From positions 1-8,792 of the forward strand of contig USFU01000062.1 in assembly GCA_900554135.1 (NCBI GenBank): 8,792 bases of DNA, given 5' to 3'. Shown here in pieces: positions 2,246 through 8,792 of the stretch. Under the pieces are notes generated by a model. The model was given only the letters and a program-made list of their open reading frames with translations. It was not told the origin of the DNA and made no database searches. The DNA comes from an uncultured Collinsella sp. (GTDB taxonomy: Bacteria; Actinomycetota; Coriobacteriia; Coriobacteriales; Coriobacteriaceae). Numbering within the stretch: the stretch's first letter is position 1; each line of letters begins with the position of its first letter. The translations under genes and the position numbers were made by a program.

Positions 2246-2803
2246 CTATTTCTTGAACGGGAAACCGAAGGCGTCCAGAAGGGCCTTGGCCTCCTCATCG
2301 GTGTTGGCGGTGGTCACGAAAGTGATGTCCATACCACGCTGGTGATCGACGGAGTCGAAGTCGATCTCGGGGAAGATGAGCTGCTCGGTGACGCCCATGG
2401 AGAAGTTACCACGGCCGTCGAAGCTCTTGGCGGAGATGCCGCGGAAGTCGCGGATACGGGGGATCGCGACGGAGGTCAGACGATCGAAGAACTCCCACAT
2501 ACGGTCGCCACGCAGGGTAACCTTGCAGCCGATCGGCATACCAGCGCGCAGGCGGAAGGTAGCGATGGACTTGCGGGCACGGGTGATCATCGGCTGCTGG
2601 CCGGTGATGGCGCGCAGGTCGCGCACGGCACCGTCGATGGCCTTGGAATCGGTAGCGGCCTCGCCGACACCCATGTTCACGACGATCTTCTCAAACTTGG
2701 GGATCATCATGACGTTCTCGTACTGGAACTTGTCCTGAAGCTGCTGCTTGACCTCGTTGTTGTACTTGGTCTTCAGACGCGGCACATACTTCTCTTCTGC
2801 CAT
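2246..2803 (-). CDS. rplE: 50S ribosomal protein L5
   Basis: Large-subunit protein L5, which binds 5S rRNA and contacts the P-site tRNA and the S13 bridge. The product is 185 residues, within the usual 178-188 range. Recognisable blocks are [16 protein letters not shown] (near 34-49), [27 protein letters not shown] (near 73-99), [18 protein letters not shown] (near 106-123) and the C-terminal [25 protein letters not shown]. The ATG start has AAGGAGT at 2809-2815, 5 bases upstream. It is the first ribosomal gene here: the expected rplX is not upstream, and none of the upstream frames resembles an L24 C-terminus. A candidate promoter lies about 140 bases upstream. Identification is secure; the operon break is the unusual part. 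Confidence 0.98.
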
Positions 2804-3023: not shown

Positions 3024-3097
3024 AAAAAGCAGTTGCAGTGAAATAGGGACTGTTTGGCTGCTTAACAGGCTTAAACAGTCCCTATTCCACCGCAACT
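3024..3097 (-). terminator. Probable intrinsic terminator downstream of the permease
   Basis: The hairpin of repeat copy A (3031-3097), read in the permease direction, is followed after GC by five T residues (3024-3028). A 25-bp stem directly followed by a T-run fits rho-independent termination. It would separate the permease transcript from the downstream ribosomal operon, which is on the same strand. The T-run is short and the stem AU-rich in its middle, so efficiency is uncertain. Confidence 0.5.
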
Positions 3098-3108
3098 CAT
3101 ATATGGGG
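3031..3108 (-). repeat. Dispersed hairpin repeat, copy A
   Basis: Inverted repeat with 25-base arms (3031-3055 and 3073-3097) and a 17-base loop. There are two non-Watson-Crick positions, 3037/3091 and 3041/3087. Both are A-C on the plus strand but G-U wobbles in minus-strand RNA, the sense of the permease just upstream. The conserved block extends past the stem through CATATATG and GGGG (to 3108), ending 2 bases from the permease stop codon. Shares arms and flank with copy B, and arms and loop motif with copy C. The inner stem is GGGACTG/CAGTCCC, differing from GTTCCTG/CAGGAAC in copy C (copy B pairs as far as GTTCCT/AGGAAC). Likely a REP-like or structured 3'-UTR element. Confidence 0.85.
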
Positions 3109-3110
3109 CG

Positions 3111-4424
3111 TTATTTTTGGTGCGGGAGGACCAGGTTGAGGATCACAGCAACGAGCGCAGCGACGGCAATGGAGGATCCGCCAAAGACGGTGCCGACCCA
3201 GGCGGGGAATCCAGCGCCGGCAAGCGCGCCGGCCGTGCGCTCAATGCCCGTGCCAAAGGCGATGGAGAGACCCATGAGCGTGGTATCGCGCTGAGGCAGG
3301 CCGTGGCGGGCAAACATGACCACACCGTTCATGCCGATGGTCGCGAACACGCCGATCGTGGCGCCGCCGATTACCGGCTGCGGAATGGACGTGAGCACTG
3401 CCGCGCACTTGGGCAGCAGGCCCGCGATGAGCAAGATGGCGGCGGCAAGCGTAAAGACCATGCGGTTGACGACCTTGTTCTCGGCGATAATGCCCACATT
3501 CTGGCCAAAGGTTGCCGTGGGGACGCCGCCCAAAAAGCCCGACAGCATACCGACCAGGCCGTTGGCGATCAGACCGCCCGAGATCTGGCTATCGGTCGCA
3601 GGGGTATCGAGCGCGGCGGACGACACGGCGGCAAACTCGCCCATAACCTGCACGGCGTTGACAATGGCGACAACGCCCACAACGGCGCACGCGGCAGGGT
3701 CGAACACCAGACGATGGGCACCCAGGGTCGGCGGAGCAAACCAGCTGGCGGTCGCGATAGCCGAGAAATCGACCATGCCCAGCACCGTCGCCAAAACAAA
3801 GCCCGCGCAGATACCGGCCAGGATGCTGCCCAGCCTAAGCGCGCCCTTGCCGTAGTTACCGACCATAAAGGTGACGACAAACGTCACGAGCGCGACGGCC
3901 CAGTTGGTGACACTGCCAAAATCGGCAGCGCCCTCCCCGCCCGCCATGGAGGCAACTGCCACTGGGCATAACGACAGGCCAATGACAAAGATGACGGTGT
4001 CAAGCACCGGGGCCGGGAACAGAAAGCTCACGCGCCTGAACAGTAGGCCGAAGAGCACGACGAGTGCGCCGCCGATTACCTGGGCGCCCAGCACGGCCTC
4101 AAAGCCGAGCTCAAGACCGACCGCCTTGAGCGCCGGCACGAAGGTGAAGCTCGCGCCCATCACGATGGGCAGGCCCGAACCGACGACACCTTTTATGGGG
4201 AACTGTTGAAGAAAAATGTCGAGCGCCGAGAGGACGAGCGACGCCTGGATGACAGCGGCTTCCTCTTGAGGGGTAAAGCCACAGACCGACGCGATAATGA
4301 TGGCGGGCGTGACGATACCCGCGAATGCCGCCAGCACATGCTGCAGCGCATGGGGTAATACCTGCACAAACGAAACTTTTCCCGTACGCTCGAACAGGGC
4401 ATCCCCTGCTGCCGACTCTGCCAT
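3111..4424 (-). CDS. NCS2-family purine (xanthine/urate type) permease
   Basis: Membrane symporter of the nucleobase-cation symporter-2 (NAT/NCS2) family, predicted to import a purine such as xanthine or urate. From the chosen ATG (4422-4424) it is 437 residues, the family norm, with about a dozen hydrophobic segments. Family landmarks: QHVLAAFAG (residues 28-36, the QH motif), MGEFAAVS (E263, matching the essential TM8 glutamate of E. coli XanQ), and the NAT signature QNVGIIAENK (308-317). Two usual residues differ: the aspartate of the ADG motif is asparagine (ANG, N288), and the signature threonine is asparagine (N316). An in-frame ATG at 4523 would add 33 residues, but it lies upstream of the -10 element and lacks a ribosome site. 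GGGAGG at 4430-4435 supports the shorter form. It neighbours xdhC and yqeB on the same strand. The exact substrate cannot be read from sequence. Confidence 0.92.
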   Translation of the reverse strand: MAESAAGDALFERTGKVSFVQVLPHALQHVLAAFAGIVTPAIIIASVCGFTPQEEAAVIQASLVLSALDIFLQQFPIKGVVGSGLPIVMGASFTFVPALKAVGLELGFEAVLGAQVIGGALVVLFGLLFRRVSFLFPAPVLDTVIFVIGLSLCPVAVASMAGGEGAADFGSVTNWAVALVTFVVTFMVGNYGKGALRLGSILAGICAGFVLATVLGMVDFSAIATASWFAPPTLGAHRLVFDPAACAVVGVVAIVNAVQVMGEFAAVSSAALDTPATDSQISGGLIANGLVGMLSGFLGGVPTATFGQNVGIIAENKVVNRMVFTLAAAILLIAGLLPKCAAVLTSIPQPVIGGATIGVFATIGMNGVVMFARHGLPQRDTTLMGLSIAFGTGIERTAGALAGAGFPAWVGTVFGGSSIAVAALVAVILNLVLPHQK

Positions 4425-4429
4425 TTGCG

Positions 4430-4435
4430 CCTCCC
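4430..4435 (-). promoter_or_regulatory. Ribosome-binding site that decides the permease start
   Basis: GGGAGG in the mRNA sense, 5 bases before the ATG at 4422-4424. The longer reading frame starting at 4523 has no such site, so this fixes the start used here. Confidence 0.75.
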
Positions 4436-4475
4436 ATACCCTAAGCAGCGGCCCCATGCCGCTCAACGGTCGGAC

Positions 4476-4481
4476 ATTATA
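4476..4481 (-). promoter_or_regulatory. Candidate -10 element of the permease promoter
   Basis: A perfect TATAAT on the minus strand. Transcription would start near 4469, giving a leader of about 45 bases. No good -35 hexamer is present at 16-18 bases (best is ATGCTA, 3 of 6), so an activator or a different sigma factor is possible. Together with the hairpin repeat at 4542-4608, it implies the permease is transcribed separately from yqeB-xdhC. The rest of the 201-base gap holds only the repeat and the ribosome site. Confidence 0.5.
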
Positions 4482-4541
4482 GGGCATATGACACAGGTAG
4501 CATTTTGACCCGCAATCCTGCATCCCCCGGGGTCAAACAGC

Positions 4542-4619
4542 AGTTGCGGTGAAATAGTTCCTGACTGACCGCCCGTCAGGCTTATTTAGGAACTATTTCA
4601 CCGCAACTCATATATGGGG
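4542..4619 (-). repeat. Dispersed hairpin repeat, copy B
   Basis: Inverted repeat with perfect 21-base arms (4542-4562 and 4588-4608) and a 25-base loop. The CATATATG plus GGGG flank (to 4619) is identical to copy A and ends 6 bases from the xdhC stop. The inner stem reads GTTCCT/AGGAAC, like copy C. The loop contains GCCTGACGGGC, able to form a small GCC/GGC stem, and an alternative CCTGAC/GTCAGG pairing (4560-4565 with 4575-4580). In the xdhC sense the stem is followed by GCTGTTTGACCCC, only a poor T-run. It separates xdhC from the permease promoter. Confidence 0.85.
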
Positions 4620-4625
4620 ATGCGA

Positions 4626-5669
4626 TTAGCGCTTGCGGGGAACGAGTTTGGTGCGCCGCAGGTGGATCATCTCGGCGGCAATGGAGATAGCGATCTCCTC
4701 GGGGTCCTCCGCCTCGATGGCGACTCCGATCGGCAGGTGCAGCTCGTCAATTTGCTCCTGCGTAAAGCCCTCCTGCTCCAAGCGGGCGCGCACAAATGCC
4801 GTCTTGCGGCGCGAACCCAAGCAGCCCAGATAGGCGGGTTTGGCGCGCATGGCCTGAATCACCACGTCGATATCGGACTTGTGACCCGCCGTGGCGACGA
4901 CCACCAGGTCGCGCGGGCCGATGGGGCACTGCTTGCTCAGGTTCTTGTAGTCGACCAGACGACGGTCGTAGACACCGGGCACCCATTCGGGGGTCAGCGT
5001 GCCGGGGCGGTCGTCGCAAGCCACGACGGCAAAACCCGCCGCCGTGAGCACGCGCGCCGTCGCGGCGCCCACGTGTCCGCAGCCAAAGATGTAGGTCAGG
5101 CCCTCGGGGCAGAGCGTCTCGATGTGTGCCGGGGGAATCTCGGAGGCGGCGTTGGTGTAGGTGACCTTACTCCCCTCCTCCACCAGCGAAAGCCCGGGGC
5201 AGCCCGCAATGGTGCGGCGCGATGCCTCGCCATGGTACTCGGCCGCATCGCCCTCGAGCGCGCTCGCGACAAACGGCCCAAAGTCGATGACGAAGTCGCC
5301 GATGCGCCGATAGGCCAAGACGTCGGCAATTTCCTGGAACAACGGTGCCTGGGTCGCATCCAGATGCAGGTAGCACAGGCAGATGGCCCCGCCGCAGATC
5401 ATGCCGGTATCGGAGTTCTCGCCGCCCATGGTATAGCGGACCAGACGCGATTGCCCTGCGGCCAGCAGCTCACGCGCCTCGTTCAGCGCAAAGAGCTCGA
5501 TCTTGCCGCCGCCGATGGTACCTGCTTGGCTGCCATCGGCAAAGACAGCCATCCAGGCGCCCACGCCGCGCGGCGATGACCCTGCCGTTCCGGCCACGAC
5601 CACGAGCTCGCACGTCTCGCCAGCACGCAGGGCGGCAAGCGCCGCATTCACAACATCGAGCTTTTCCAT
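4626..5669 (-). CDS. xdhC: XdhC/CoxI-family molybdenum cofactor insertion protein
   Basis: Accessory protein of molybdenum hydroxylases such as xanthine dehydrogenase. In characterised members it binds molybdenum cofactor, promotes its sulfuration and delivers it to the apoenzyme in the cytoplasm. The 347-residue product has both expected halves. The N-terminal XdhC_CoxI domain carries TAGSSPRGVGAWMAV (28-42), GTIGGGKIE (50-58) and GMICGG (89-94). The C-terminal Rossmann domain carries FGCGHVG (195-201), CDDRP (218-222), LGSRRK (284-289) and PIGVAIEAEDPEEIAISI (313-330). The usual glycine in the IGLxIGAxTPEEI block is glutamate (E319). The start lies 9 bases after the yqeB stop, with a weak AAGG ribosome site, so it is probably co-transcribed and coupled with yqeB. 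The family is confident; the partner hydroxylase is not in the window. Confidence 0.93.
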   Translation of the reverse strand: MEKLDVVNAALAALRAGETCELVVVAGTAGSSPRGVGAWMAVFADGSQAGTIGGGKIELFALNEARELLAAGQSRLVRYTMGGENSDTGMICGGAICLCYLHLDATQAPLFQEIADVLAYRRIGDFVIDFGPFVASALEGDAAEYHGEASRRTIAGCPGLSLVEEGSKVTYTNAASEIPPAHIETLCPEGLTYIFGCGHVGAATARVLTAAGFAVVACDDRPGTLTPEWVPGVYDRRLVDYKNLSKQCPIGPRDLVVVATAGHKSDIDVVIQAMRAKPAYLGCLGSRRKTAFVRARLEQEGFTQEQIDELHLPIGVAIEAEDPEEIAISIAAEMIHLRRTKLVPRKR

Positions 5670-5678
5670 TGCCGCCTT

Positions 5679-6473
5679 CTATCCTTTAAAGACATCGGTG
5701 AGCATAGCGAGTGCCTCGAGCACGCCGCCGCCGACCGACGTCGCCTTGTCCGAAATATAGTTGATATAGCCGGCGTCGCCGCGGGGGTCGACGTCGGCGC
5801 ATTTAAAGCCCTCAGTCACCTGCACGCCGTTCGCCAAAAGGCCGCGCAGGCAGCCATCGATCTGCGTGCGCATGGGCGTATCGCCCGCGTAGCCAATCAC
5901 GTCTCCGGCGCTCACGATATCGCCGATCGCATGGTCGGACCGAAACACGCCGGCGGCGGGGCTGTGGATAACACGCTCTTTGCCATAGCCGGCGATAATG
6001 CCCGGCACGCCCGTGTTGGGCTGGGGCGAGCCTTGGGTAATGACACGGCCCAGGAAATGCCCGCGCATGGTTTCGACCACGGCGTCGCAGTCAACCGGCG
6101 CGGCAAAGCCCGGCCCCACGGCGATAACGGCAGGCGCCATGTCGCGCGTGGTGCCCAAGTTACGCTTGGCCAGAATCGCGTCGACCACAGCCGCGGGCTT
6201 CAGTTCGTCGAGCATCTTGGCCTGGGGGTCCACCACAACGGCAACATCCCCCGTTTGGATAATCTCGAGCGCCTCAGCCGGCGCCTGCGCCAAGCGGGCG
6301 CGAATGCCCTCGACCTCGACCTCGCCCAAGCGAATGGCCTCGCAAAAACTGATTGTGCGACGGATGCACGTGGGGACCGCGATATCGGCCATGACGACCG
6401 ACACGCCGGCGCGCACCAAGCGAGCGGCGACGCCCGTGGCGATATCGCCGGCGCCGCGAACATAAACGAGCAT
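5679..6473 (-). CDS. yqeB: Selenium-dependent molybdenum cofactor biosynthesis protein YqeB
   Basis: Member of the YqeB (EF2563) family, a comparative-genomics marker of selenium-dependent molybdenum hydroxylases; its chemistry is not firmly established. The 264-residue product matches the family length. Visible landmarks: a nucleotide-binding-like start VRGAGDIATG (5-14), PGFAAPVDCDAVVETMRGHFLGRV (121-144), QGSPQPNTGVPG (147-158), RGLLANGVQV (210-219), KCADVDPRGD (224-233) and DKATSVGGGVLEA (242-254). The ATG is preceded by GGGAGG at 6484-6489, 10 bases upstream. It is first in a two-gene unit with xdhC and divergent from yqeC, with which it shares a 102-base promoter region containing an interrupted palindrome. 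Its presence argues that the organism makes a labile-selenium hydroxylase. Confidence 0.92.
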   Translation of the reverse strand: MLVYVRGAGDIATGVAARLVRAGVSVVMADIAVPTCIRRTISFCEAIRLGEVEVEGIRARLAQAPAEALEIIQTGDVAVVVDPQAKMLDELKPAAVVDAILAKRNLGTTRDMAPAVIAVGPGFAAPVDCDAVVETMRGHFLGRVITQGSPQPNTGVPGIIAGYGKERVIHSPAAGVFRSDHAIGDIVSAGDVIGYAGDTPMRTQIDGCLRGLLANGVQVTEGFKCADVDPRGDAGYINYISDKATSVGGGVLEALAMLTDVFKG

Positions 6474-6505
6474 TCCCGGGGCACCTCCCTGTGCTACGGT
6501 TTGAA

Positions 6506-6535
6506 CAGAGCAAAAGCGGTTCGACCGCTACTCTG
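6506..6535. promoter_or_regulatory. Interrupted palindrome between yqeB and yqeC, possible operator
   Basis: CAGAG (6506-6510), four spacer bases, AGCGGT (6515-6520), TCG, ACCGCT (6524-6529), one base, CTCTG (6531-6535): two nested inverted repeats with a common centre region. It lies between the divergent starts of yqeB and yqeC. It overlaps the candidate -35 of yqeC and lies within the likely yqeB leader. It could be a regulator-binding site or an RNA hairpin in the yqeB leader. The symmetry is seen; the function is inferred. Confidence 0.5.
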
Positions 6536-6544
6536 ATGATTATT

Positions 6545-6562
6545 TATTATCACAGTATTATA
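6545..6562. promoter_or_regulatory. Overlapping divergent -10 elements for yqeB and yqeC
   Basis: Minus strand: a perfect TATAAT at 6557-6562 (and GATAAT at 6546-6551) facing yqeB. Plus strand: TATTAT at 6545-6550 and again at 6556-6561 facing yqeC. TCGACC (6521-6526) stands 18 bases before the first plus-strand TATTAT and matches 4 of 6 at -35; it lies inside the palindrome. The -35 matches for yqeB are poor. Using the second TATTAT would leave yqeC an almost leaderless transcript of about 8 bases. This AT-rich patch stands out in a GC-rich region. Confidence 0.45.
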
Positions 6563-6575
6563 CGGCGGTGAACAG

Positions 6576-7310
6576 ATGGAAACGGTTAGCGGCAATCTTG
6601 CCTCGGCGCTCAGGATTGAGCCGGGCATTACCGCGATTATCGGCAGCGGCGGCAAGTCGACCTTGCTAAAGACGCTCGGCCTTGAGCTTATGCGCGCTGG
6701 CGGCCGCGTGCTCCTCTGCACCACCACGCGCATGTTCCCCGTCGCCGGCGTGCCGTGGGACGGGTCGAGCCGTCGCCTGGACGCCGCGCCCTGGAAGCCG
6801 GGTGCCTCACACGCCCCAGGCTGCACCTGCGAGGCCTGCGCGGGGCTTGTGCGGGGAAGCATCTGCCAGGCGGGTGTTTTGGACCCGGAGACGGGCAAGC
6901 TCTCCTCCCCTGCCGAGCCGCTCGACCAGCTGGCGCAGCGCTTTGACTACGTCCTGGCCGAGGCGGACGGCAGCAAGCGGCTCCCGCTCAAGGCCCACGC
7001 CCCGTGGGAGCCGGTCGTTCCCGCAGGCACGGCCAACGTTATCTGGGTCGTGGGCGCCTCGGGGCTGGGCAAGCCCGTCGCCGAGGTTGTCCACCGCCCC
7101 GAGCTCTTCTGCGAGCGCTGCGGCTGCAAGCCCACCGACATTGCCACCCCCGAGCGCGTCGCCCAAGCGCTCAACGCCGAGCTGCGGGCGCTGGACCTCA
7201 ACACCGCCCGCATCATGCTCAACCAAGTCGACACGCTCAGCGACCCCACGATGGCCGACTGCTTCGAGGCCGCCCTCGGCCGCCTCATCGTCGCCAGCAG
7301 CCTCAAATAG
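6576..7310 (+). CDS. yqeC: Selenium-dependent hydroxylase accessory protein YqeC
   Basis: YqeC-family protein, found with YqeB in genomes predicted to carry selenium-dependent molybdenum hydroxylases; the biochemical role is unproven. The 244-residue product has a P-loop-like GSGGKSTLL (23-31), LLCTTTRMFPV (46-56), DYVLAEADGSKRLPLKAH (124-141), GLGKPVAEVVHRPELF (163-178) and NQVD (216-219), all expected family blocks. It is odd in carrying two cysteine clusters: CTCEAC (C83, C85, C88) and CERCGC (C179, C182, C184), forming CxCxxC and CxxCxC. The start is ATG after a weak GGCGGTG site. It is divergent from yqeB and convergent with the hydantoinase gene. The family assignment is strong. Confidence 0.92.
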   Translation: METVSGNLASALRIEPGITAIIGSGGKSTLLKTLGLELMRAGGRVLLCTTTRMFPVAGVPWDGSSRRLDAAPWKPGASHAPGCTCEACAGLVRGSICQAGVLDPETGKLSSPAEPLDQLAQRFDYVLAEADGSKRLPLKAHAPWEPVVPAGTANVIWVVGASGLGKPVAEVVHRPELFCERCGCKPTDIATPERVAQALNAELRALDLNTARIMLNQVDTLSDPTMADCFEAALGRLIVASSLK

Positions 7311-7319
7311 CCGGCGCTG

Positions 7320-7402
7320 CCCCACCAGACATATAAGTTGCGGTGGAATAGTTCCTGAAACGGCCTATTTGGCGGCTAAACAGGAACTATTTCACCGCAA
7401 CT
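7320..7402 (+). repeat. Dispersed hairpin repeat, copy C
   Basis: Inverted repeat with 22-base arms (7336-7357 and 7381-7402) and a 23-base loop, placed between the convergent yqeC and hydantoinase genes. The single non-Watson-Crick pair (7346/7392) is a G-T wobble on the plus strand, the sense of yqeC; on the minus strand it would be A-C. The proximal flank, CCCC then ACATATAAG (7320-7337), is a degenerate version of the copy A/B flank, placing the element in yqeC orientation. The loop carries GCCTATTTGGC. No T-run follows in the yqeC direction (GCGAAGGG). It may still act for both genes. Confidence 0.82.
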
Positions 7403-7428
7403 GCGAAGGGAATCCGGCGCCCTTTCTG

Positions 7429-8792
7429 TTAGCGGGGGACGTAGCGGCCGGGTTGGGCTCCGGTGGGCTCGCCGTCGCGTGCAGCCAGCACGCCGTTCAC
7501 AAACACAGCCTTGGCGCGGCCATGCGCCTCAAAACCCTCGAGCGGCGTGTAGTCCACAGCCTGATGCTGTGTCGCGGCACTAATTGTCCAACGCGCCTTG
7601 GGATCCCACACGCACACGTCGGCATCGGAGCCCTCGGCAAGACAGCCCTTGCGCGGATACATGCCAAAGACGCGCGCCGGGTTCTCGCTCATCAAGCGGC
7701 ACAGATCCTCAGGACCCAGCTGTCCCTCAAAGCTCGTAGCGATCGCAACGGGGCGATGCTCCACACCGGGCCCGCCGTTGGGAATCGCGCGGAAGTCGTC
7801 GCGTCCGCGGTCCTTTTGCCCGTGCAGGTTAAAGCTGCAGTGGTCGGTCGCAATCGTATCGATCTCGCCGGACACAAGCGCCTCGCGCAGAGCCGCACGG
7901 TCGCCAGCATGGCGCAGCGGCGGACTCATCACATACTTGGCACCCGCAAAGCCGTCCTCTCCCTGCTCCAGATAGCAGGTGTCGTCGAGCATCAGATACT
8001 GAGGGCAGGTCTCGACATAGATGTTCTTCTGCCCGCGCGCCTTGGCAGCGCGAATGGCCTCGAGCCCCAGCCTGGTCGAAAGGTGCACCACGTTGACCGG
8101 AGCATCCCCGGCCAAGTGAGCCAGATACAGCAGCCGGCTCACTGCCTCGGCCTCGCACACATCCGGACGGCTGAGCGCATGGCCCTCGGGCCCGTGGATA
8201 CCCTGCTTAAACACGCGCTTCTGCAGTTCATTCACCAGCGTACCGTTCTCGCAATGCACGCACAGGATACCGCCCAGGCGCTTGAGCTCCTCGAGCACCT
8301 CGAGCGTCTCGGCATCGTCCAGGCGCAGATGATCGTAGGCAAAGTAGGTCTTGAATGACGATACGCCCGCCTCGCGCATGGCCGAAAGATCGGCGCGGTT
8401 GCGCTCGTTCCACTCGGCGAGTGCCATATGAAAGGCGTAGTTGGCCGTGCAGGTTCCGTCGGCGCGGCGATGCCACTCGGCCAAGGCATCGGGCATGGTC
8501 ACGCCGCGATCGGCCGTGGCGTAGTCCACAATGGTCGTCGTACCGCCGCAGGCAGCCGCACGCGTACCGGTCTCAAAGCTATCGGCCGTCCAATCCATGC
8601 CGGTCCAGCACTGCATGTGCGTGTGGGCATCGATAAAGCCGGGGAACACCCAGCAGCCCGCGGCATCCTGGACGGTATCGCCCTCGGCCGGCTCAATCGC
8701 CGCGGCGATCCGCACGATCTTATCGCCATCCATGGCAAGATCGGCGCGGCGAAGCCCCTGGGGCGTCACGAGCGCGCCGTTTTTGATGATGA
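7429..8792 (-). CDS. hydA: Dihydropyrimidinase / D-hydantoinase family amidohydrolase, 5' end beyond window
   Basis: Metal-dependent cyclic amidohydrolase that opens hydantoin-like or dihydropyrimidine rings. Codons continue upstream of the first GTG to the window edge (IIKNGALVTPQGLRR), the standard family N-terminus, so the true start lies just past 8792 and only a few residues are missing. About 453 residues are visible. Counting from the valine codon at 8767-8769, the binuclear metal site is complete: DAHTHM (H49, H51), SFKTYFAYD (K140, the carboxylated lysine), VHCENG (H172), VVHLST (H229) and ATDHC (D309). Substrate-side MSPPLR and IPNGGPGVEHR are present. The stop TAA is at 7429-7431. 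Homologues such as HyuA occur in selenium-hydroxylase/purine clusters of E. coli and gut anaerobes, which fits its neighbours; the actual substrate is unknown. Confidence 0.93.
   Translation of the reverse strand, partial: IIKNGALVTPQGLRRADLAMDGDKIVRIAAAIEPAEGDTVQDAAGCWVFPGFIDAHTHMQCWTGMDWTADSFETGTRAAACGGTTTIVDYATADRGVTMPDALAEWHRRADGTCTANYAFHMALAEWNERNRADLSAMREAGVSSFKTYFAYDHLRLDDAETLEVLEELKRLGGILCVHCENGTLVNELQKRVFKQGIHGPEGHALSRPDVCEAEAVSRLLYLAHLAGDAPVNVVHLSTRLGLEAIRAAKARGQKNIYVETCPQYLMLDDTCYLEQGEDGFAGAKYVMSPPLRHAGDRAALREALVSGEIDTIATDHCSFNLHGQKDRGRDDFRAIPNGGPGVEHRPVAIATSFEGQLGPEDLCRLMSENPARVFGMYPRKGCLAEGSDADVCVWDPKARWTISAATQHQAVDYTPLEGFEAHGRAKAVFVNGVLAARDGEPTGAQPGRYVPR

Follow-up and report, generated by a model that had tools for sequence, protein, structure and literature searches.

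What are three long hairpins of almost the same sequence doing behind three genes of one short Collinsella locus? The stretch in question, called here the window, comprises 8,792 nt from an uncultured Collinsella sp. (contig USFU01000062.1, assembly GCA_900554135.1). A preliminary description, made from its letters alone, had noticed three covarying hairpins tied to gene 3′ ends and had offered three kinds of explanation: an element like the repetitive extragenic palindromic (REP) sequences, one like the miniature inverted-repeat transposable elements (MITEs), or an RNA of 3′ untranslated regions (3′-UTRs). The first is the best of the three. The hairpins would be copies of a 65-nt element resembling the REPINs, doublets of REP sequences that form hairpins (Bertels and Rainey 2011, PMC3116915), and kept at gene ends; we give this explanation as a whole a probability of about 0.6.

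A Hairpin Family of Fixed Length in One Clade

The three hairpins are real and near-perfect, and each is exactly 65 nt long:

3032..3096, no strand: first copy of the element (65 nt, GGA type), lying between the pbuX stop and the rplE start; pairing extends at least to A3031/T3097
4543..4607, no strand: second copy (65 nt, TTC type), lying between the xdhC stop and the pbuX start
7337..7401, no strand: third copy (65 nt, TTC type), in the gap where yqeC and the dihydropyrimidinase gene converge

Their folding z-scores are −9.6, −8.5, and −7.3 for copies 1, 2, and 3, respectively, and for none of the three did any of 200 shuffles fold as well. As described earlier, three inner base pairs are exchanged on both arms (GGA/TCC versus TTC/GAA), and no copy lies inside a called gene. 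The arms are common to the copies, but the shared core that had been proposed for them holds only in part, the left arm of copy 1 having GTTGCAGTG. The three copies also share a CATATA flank, which is not family-wide, the usual flank of the family being ATAA...TTAT.

The unit consists of arms STTGCGGTGRAATAS, an inner block of three base pairs, usually GGA or TTC but opening with CGGA in a third form, and a centre whose length is fixed and whose sequence varies. Scanning 84,980 species genomes with a hairpin pattern returned at least 120 stretches, and the 80 of these that were listed are all from Collinsella. When the arms were matched less strictly in 121 records (120 loci and the window), 149 hairpins emerged, 145 of them 65 nt and 4 of them 64 nt long, in a set chosen by its arms and hence biased to intact ones. 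A covariance model, as had been proposed, was then built from 62 copies turned by their genes and run over 43 Collinsella genomes. It found further copies, with compensatory changes, across one clade: 22 genomes have 39–96 matches, three have 2–3, and 18 have none. Because both strands are counted, this amounts to some 20–48 sites per rich genome and one or two in each of the three poor ones. The 22 rich genomes are exactly those with an XdhC protein 94%–97% identical to that of the window (next best 58%). Judged from sequence, the element family is a mark of one clade, which we name here the C. aerofaciens clade; any clade-specific gene will co-occur with the element. Among 396 genomes drawn evenly from the class, which we take to be Coriobacteriia, 24 match under stricter filters and with few candidates scored per genome, and all 24 belong to the genus set.

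The genome G024 provides a set unbiased with respect to the arms, with all matches on one contig of 2,245,632 bp. It has 47 sites, none under 40 bits even at E values up to 1, and 44 of them are 65 nt long. Between its paralogous copies the arms are 90%–91% identical and the 23-nt centre 42% (26% when shuffled). Phages gave no element match, viral contigs gave none to the exact element pattern, and the single matching plasmid record is a 0.9-Mb C. aerofaciens replicon, on which grounds a phage or plasmid origin was rejected. An attC-type recombination site was also set aside, as the arms begin with GTT and end with AAC, presumably the reverse of attC ends. The Rfam search suggested in the preliminary description gave no family match above the gathering score for the window; four weak matches to miRNA models (best E 0.0024, 32 bits versus a gathering score of 90) reflect likeness of hairpin shape and were discarded.

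Placement at the 3′ Ends of Genes

Genes were called with a home-made codon model, so that distances to them are approximate. The window copies do lie 3′ of pbuX, xdhC, and yqeC, but at 14, 18, and 26 nt from the respective stops (3111, 4626, and 7310), not at the 2–9 nt first reported. The same placement is found throughout G024, where 29 sites stand between co-directional genes, 17 between convergent genes, none between divergent genes, and one overlaps a called open reading frame, so that 46/47 are 3′ of a gene. By comparison, 24/75 of the other intergenic gaps of at least 85 nt in the same fetched regions, obtained by subtraction, are divergent (Fisher p 2e-6). Among the co-directional copies, 24/29 are closer to the upstream stop (median 27 nt) than to the next start (median 118 nt). 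The view of a dispersed structured family at 3′ ends is thus borne out, with 22 of 43 genomes rich in it.

At one site the element is present in three genomes (L061, L251, and L027), and 11 of the 12 others have there, by eye, a GC-rich terminator-like hairpin; the remaining one (L252) has another repeat family. Other dispersed repeats, e.g., with core GGGGACGTTCC, or GTAGCTAATTTGGGACGGGGC, adjoin or replace the element at the same gene ends (in the flanks of L082, L096, and L097, and in L201 and L252). The flanks of the element are C-rich and G-rich. A locus-specific outer stem, as expected if the element had dropped into existing terminator hairpins, was rejected because the two flanks of an element bind each other no more strongly than flanks exchanged between elements do (permutation p 0.33).

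Pairing, Orientation, and the RNA Alternative

In the 44 G024 copies that measure 65 nt, 89.6% of cells are paired, 70 cells carry changes on both sides as against 35 in shuffles, and the covariation score drops from 0.195 to 0.016–0.117 on sliding the partners by one to three columns. Most inner triples are GGA or TTC; mixed pairs are few, and 1, 2, and 5 of 44 copies are unpaired at the three positions. Compensated changes are also found at arm position 11 (UA in 2/44, GC in 1/44). At arm position 10, A or G faces T or C without coupling (AU 20, GU 9, GC 6, and unpaired 9 of 44). Position 1 lacks a pair in 8 of the 44 copies and position 19 in 12.

Such hairpins could be a family of structured 3′-UTR RNAs or of bidirectional intrinsic-type terminators, selected mainly as RNA and never mobile. 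Their strength, the absence of divergent sites, and the strong covariation of pairs are all expected under this explanation, and so is the scarcity of other terminators at element-bearing convergent ends: a canonical terminator elsewhere in the gap was found at 3/34 such ends with the element versus 10/18 without (Fisher p 0.0004; home-made finder), a difference that is suggestive only, since element-bearing gaps leave less room. There is also a weak signal of orientation. At all 47 G024 sites of this palindromic unit, the model scores of the two strands are within ~6 bits of each other; among the 29 co-directional sites, the sense strand has the better score at 20 and the worse at 8, with a tie at 1. 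The model is not independent of the question, since the copies used to build it had been turned by their genes. The earlier statement that copies are oriented with their genes is therefore weak at best.

RNA-level selection should favour G.U pairs. On the sense strand of 28 co-directional G024 copies, the 21-bp stem without position 10 has 12 G.U and 12 A.C departures, and the same count in 28 dereplicated copies of other strains, at sites shared with the G024 set, gives 10 and 12; at position 10 itself, A.C is commoner than G.U in both sets (8 to 5 and 11 to 5). Since G.U is no commoner than A.C, and position 10 pairs no better than independent bases would, a DNA-level element is indicated more than an RNA motif, and the arms seem to be read at the level of DNA. 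Furthermore, arm sequence is conserved beyond what pairing needs, and near-identical arms at unrelated sites require copying. The RNA option of the preliminary description is weakened by the equal departures and kept in play by the weak orientation signal, and we regard it as unlikely. G-T pairing has been taken as an argument for a function of many REPs as RNA (PMC3733652); the Collinsella family does not show this.

Change at Orthologous Sites

Among the 43 sites fetched from genome G006, there are orthologous elements for 35 of the 47 of G024. Of 32 one-to-one pairs, 27 were assigned to one element shared by descent and 5 to a different element in the same place, two of these five having flanks only 87.5%–87.6% identical. 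In the 24 usable pairs, differences amount to 20/720 in arms, 59/552 in centres, 20/288 in inner blocks, and 364/2753 in the 60-nt flanks. The arms are thus the slowest part, evolving about four times more slowly than the centre in this one genome pair. The type of the inner block can change in place: at one site it is GGA/TCC in L061 and L251 and TTC/GAA in L027, on both arms and with an identical centre, and two G024/G006 pairs show a switch of type with a related centre.

The switch with an identical centre, like the five replaced elements (with the reservation on two of them), is what one would expect if palindrome-templated correction and ectopic gene conversion kept the arms alike and complementary, with neither function nor recent transposition. 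However, if one arm corrected the other, position 10 would be matched as well, and it pairs at random; so would positions 1 and 19, which have 8 and 12 unpaired copies. This makes the explanation very improbable.

The element-free site L194 has a direct repeat, TATTGAT, in common with occupied alleles such as L190, and further adjoining bases differ too. This repeat would suit a MITE derived from another kind of insertion sequence, its terminal inverted repeats being the arms of 15–21 nt, and so would palindromic ends and a dispersed, intergenic distribution. Yet the TATTGAT case is not a clean insertion, the length is fixed at 65 nt, and no insertion sequence with these ends turned up, though none was specifically searched for and single arms were not inspected for an intervening transposase. 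We find a MITE improbable.

RAYT Transposases and Remote Relatives

REPINs are accompanied by REP-associated tyrosine transposases (RAYTs), and such a linked transposase had been proposed as something to look for. The outcome is mixed: no element adjoins one, but in sister species such transposases are flanked by what are probably kin of the element. Matches to PF01797 (Y1) are found in 37 of the 43 genomes, and 19 of 20 RAYT loci inspected by eye are bordered by their own palindromic repeats, often with GGGAC-type loops; the exception is the group (i) locus of G024. Collinsella genomes hold many different RAYT/REP pairs (L149–L158 and L290–L309), each with its own palindromic repeat, and so offer ample material for work on how the two co-evolve. 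A shared CGTTCGCCGAA motif, which may be a promoter or operator element, is present near genes around RAYT loci (intergenic regions of L161, L168, and L169).

One set of RAYTs, group (i), has nearly the distribution of the element. Proteins 70%–100% identical, without internal stops, are encoded in 21 of the 22 element-rich genomes and in 0/21 of the others, where the best match is 43% identical. All five group (i) proteins scanned match Y1_Tnp, and models of a C-terminal helix-turn-helix (HTH) match above their curated cut-off in L167, just above it in L164, and below it in the other three. The catalytic tyrosine, recognized by the Y---NP context of the class-2 motif (PMC6006769), is replaced by serine in 14 of the 18 group (i) copies that were aligned out of 21. 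The HUH motif is also changed in 9 of these 14 (HVR in five, xVD in four), and both HUH and tyrosine are kept only in G007, G005, G035, and G014. Six RAYTs of other groups in the same alignment keep both. Within the groups, dN/dS is 0.09–0.49 by a simple count method, two identical pairs left aside, and so well below 1; the gene remains under purifying selection despite the loss of catalytic residues in most copies. G024 and G006, the pair compared above, both carry a tyrosine-less copy. The 14 tyrosine-less genomes have 42–96 element matches and the four intact ones 39–90, and we claim no trend. A search of solved structures with one RAYT gave no match at E 0.01. Degenerate arms seen by eye beside group (i) genes proved to be within chance against shuffles, and a first RAYT tree, unresolved and with mis-chosen reading frames included (L151, L153, L155, and L157), was set aside. 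Assigning group (i) to the element rests on co-occurrence in one clade and on elimination, and is a lead; that it is the cognate RAYT is possible, though somewhat doubtful.

Outside the clade, model sites at E values up to 0.001 comprise a single intact copy, that of G015 (E 3e-15), and doublets of an inverted REP unit, which occur in G041 and G037. Single REP units of the doublet type flank RAYTs in G041, G030, and G037. The doublet arms score 1.3–7.7 bits, versus 25.2–37.1 for true members, and by their sequence the doublets are probable remote kin of the 65-mer.

Comparison with Known Systems

Like REPINs (PMC3116915), the 65-mer has inverted conserved ends, a spacer held by its length and its capacity to fold into a hairpin, compensatory changes, and many copies outside coding sequence. 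It differs from them in having discrete inner-stem classes and, in its clade, no adjacent RAYT bearing these repeats. Its copy number is also lower, with ~20–48 sites per genome as compared with 430 REPIN doublets in SBW25 (PMC3116915).

A second point of comparison is the TIRYT type, i.e., subclass 2.1 of the Y1 systems, whose repeats carry a reported GGGGWSAS motif (PMC3733652; PMC6006769). Collinsella RAYTs are similarly bordered by repeats, often with GGGAC-type motifs near GGGGWSAS, and group (i) resembles TIRYTs in the C-terminal HTH of the two proteins of five above the cut-off. The GGA-type inner arm of the 65-mer reads GGGACTG, which fits GGGGWSAS in part only. Unlike the terminal inverted repeats of TIRYTs, the 65-mer borders none of the RAYTs tested and is not found at the borders of group (i) in 11 loci. 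Finally, the element is placed between co-directional and convergent genes as are the GTAG and CGTC REP super-families, but it is 65 nt long and not 20–40 bp (PMC3733652).

A Probable REPIN-Like Element and Its Possible Role at Gene Ends

Under the REPIN-like explanation, two inverted arms conserved in sequence fold into one long hairpin around a centre whose length is under more constraint than its sequence. Such an element would have spread in trans, as single-stranded hairpin DNA, by means of a TIRYT-type RAYT. The spreader was perhaps the clade-wide group (i) enzyme, which would later have lost its catalytic residues in most of the copies read. Copies would have persisted after genes because they are harmless there, and could act as symmetric two-way transcript-end hairpins that replace the ordinary terminator, and perhaps also as binding sites for a RAYT that no longer cuts. 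Three things argue for a REPIN-like origin, namely the architecture, the fixed length, and the remote relatives that flank RAYTs in sister species, and we hold this origin to be likely. The two-way role at 3′ ends is a tentative proposal, with somewhat less than an even chance.

A number of results weigh against the explanation. As to origin, neither transposition nor a clean target duplication was seen. No cognate RAYT with these REPs in its immediate vicinity was found: the element occurs in 1 of 32 loci around PF01797 matches (some overlapping, a few without a RAYT frame), 2.3 kb away; in G024 the five PF01797 matches are all 13 kb or more from the nearest element; and arm-like sequence within 400 nt of group (i) RAYTs, at 11 loci, never beats more than 96 of 100 shuffles. 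The co-occurrence of group (i) with the element is confounded with the clade, and G031 has ~27 sites and no group (i) hit, its locus being perhaps unassembled. The doublets of sister species span 87–88 bases for 81 model positions, making them 6–7 nt longer than the 65-mer, and their arms beat shuffles (0–25 of 200000) at a fixed offset that was picked after the doublets had been seen. There is no GTAG or CGTC tag at the foot of the stem, where the flanks are the symmetric ATAA and TTAT. As to pairing, two of five covariation measures are no better than in shuffles, i.e., pairs changed on both sides (11 versus 9.3; 60/500) and pair types (21 versus 19.8; 174/500). As to the role at gene ends, canonical terminators at co-directional ends are not significantly rarer with the element (9/29 versus 17/42), a count subject to the same confounding by room in the gap as the convergent one. 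The usual right flank after the stem is TTAnnnGG, with no steady U-tract; at least five T in the next 8 nt are found in 10/29 co-directional copies (the background was not computed). Because the search for an adjacent RAYT of its own failed, we call the element REPIN-like in its construction and stop short of counting it among established REPINs.

The xdhC Locus

The genes around the three copies are as follows:

2246..2803, minus strand: rplE, 50S ribosomal protein L5, the next gene downstream of copy 1
3111..4523, minus strand: pbuX-like NCS2 xanthine permease, whose start may be 4424; its TIGR03173 match is below the cut-off of that model
4626..5669, minus strand: XdhC-family maturation factor, whose best models match below their cut-offs
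6576..7310, plus strand: yqeC, selenium cofactor biosynthesis protein, by model match
7429..8790, minus strand: dihydropyrimidinase (TIGR02033), convergent with yqeC and extending past the window edge

From 4626 to 8790, xdhC, yqeB, yqeC, and the dihydropyrimidinase gene form one cluster, presumably a locus for a selenium-dependent molybdenum hydroxylase and for purine use. The pbuX gene, flanked by copies 1 and 2, is missing at this locus in most relatives. In 18 of 22 clade genomes the order is xdhC, a single element, and rplE, with no pbuX between. It is present in two, one with no element on the xdhC side (L182) and one with an element there (L198). Of the other two, L194 has neither pbuX nor element and L201 has other sequence. 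The single junction element in most pbuX-less relatives resembles a recombinant of copies 1 and 2: 13 of the 18 loci combine the rplE-side flank of copy 1, up to the arm, with the xdhC side of copy 2, while in the other five (L181, L190, L195, L196, and L197) the bases beside the left arm differ. The centre of the single element is like that of copy 1 in 17/18 and like that of copy 2 in one (L181). This fits a gain or loss of pbuX through recombination at the elements, perhaps repeatedly, with either direction of change.

Implications

Collinsella is a human gut genus, and the analysis places a REPIN-like family in it. Literature on REPs and RAYTs in Collinsella, as far as its text was available, yielded no report of such a family, the palindromic candidates in the supplements of PMC8040213 being unchecked. 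REPINs and RAYTs are held to be a domesticated pair, with little evidence of benefit to the host (PMC8049555). In one genome pair of the C. aerofaciens clade, copies are under constraint while the candidate RAYT has lost catalytic residues and kept its frame and a low dN/dS. If group (i) is the right RAYT, copying and host benefit are here separated, and the benefit becomes testable. One could go further and suppose that the REPIN population has outlived cutting, and that the clade-wide RAYT, now nuclease-dead but kept by purifying selection, binds the palindromes, the two forming a domesticated system that marks gene ends. We think this unlikely; if true, the sites might be, for example, two-way terminators, insulators, or nucleoid sites, and the GGA/TTC/CGGA inner block would be a binding code that switches on both arms together. 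The 65-mer family looks like a new branch of the known REPIN class, and its elements may have persisted after the enzyme that used to move them could no longer cut.

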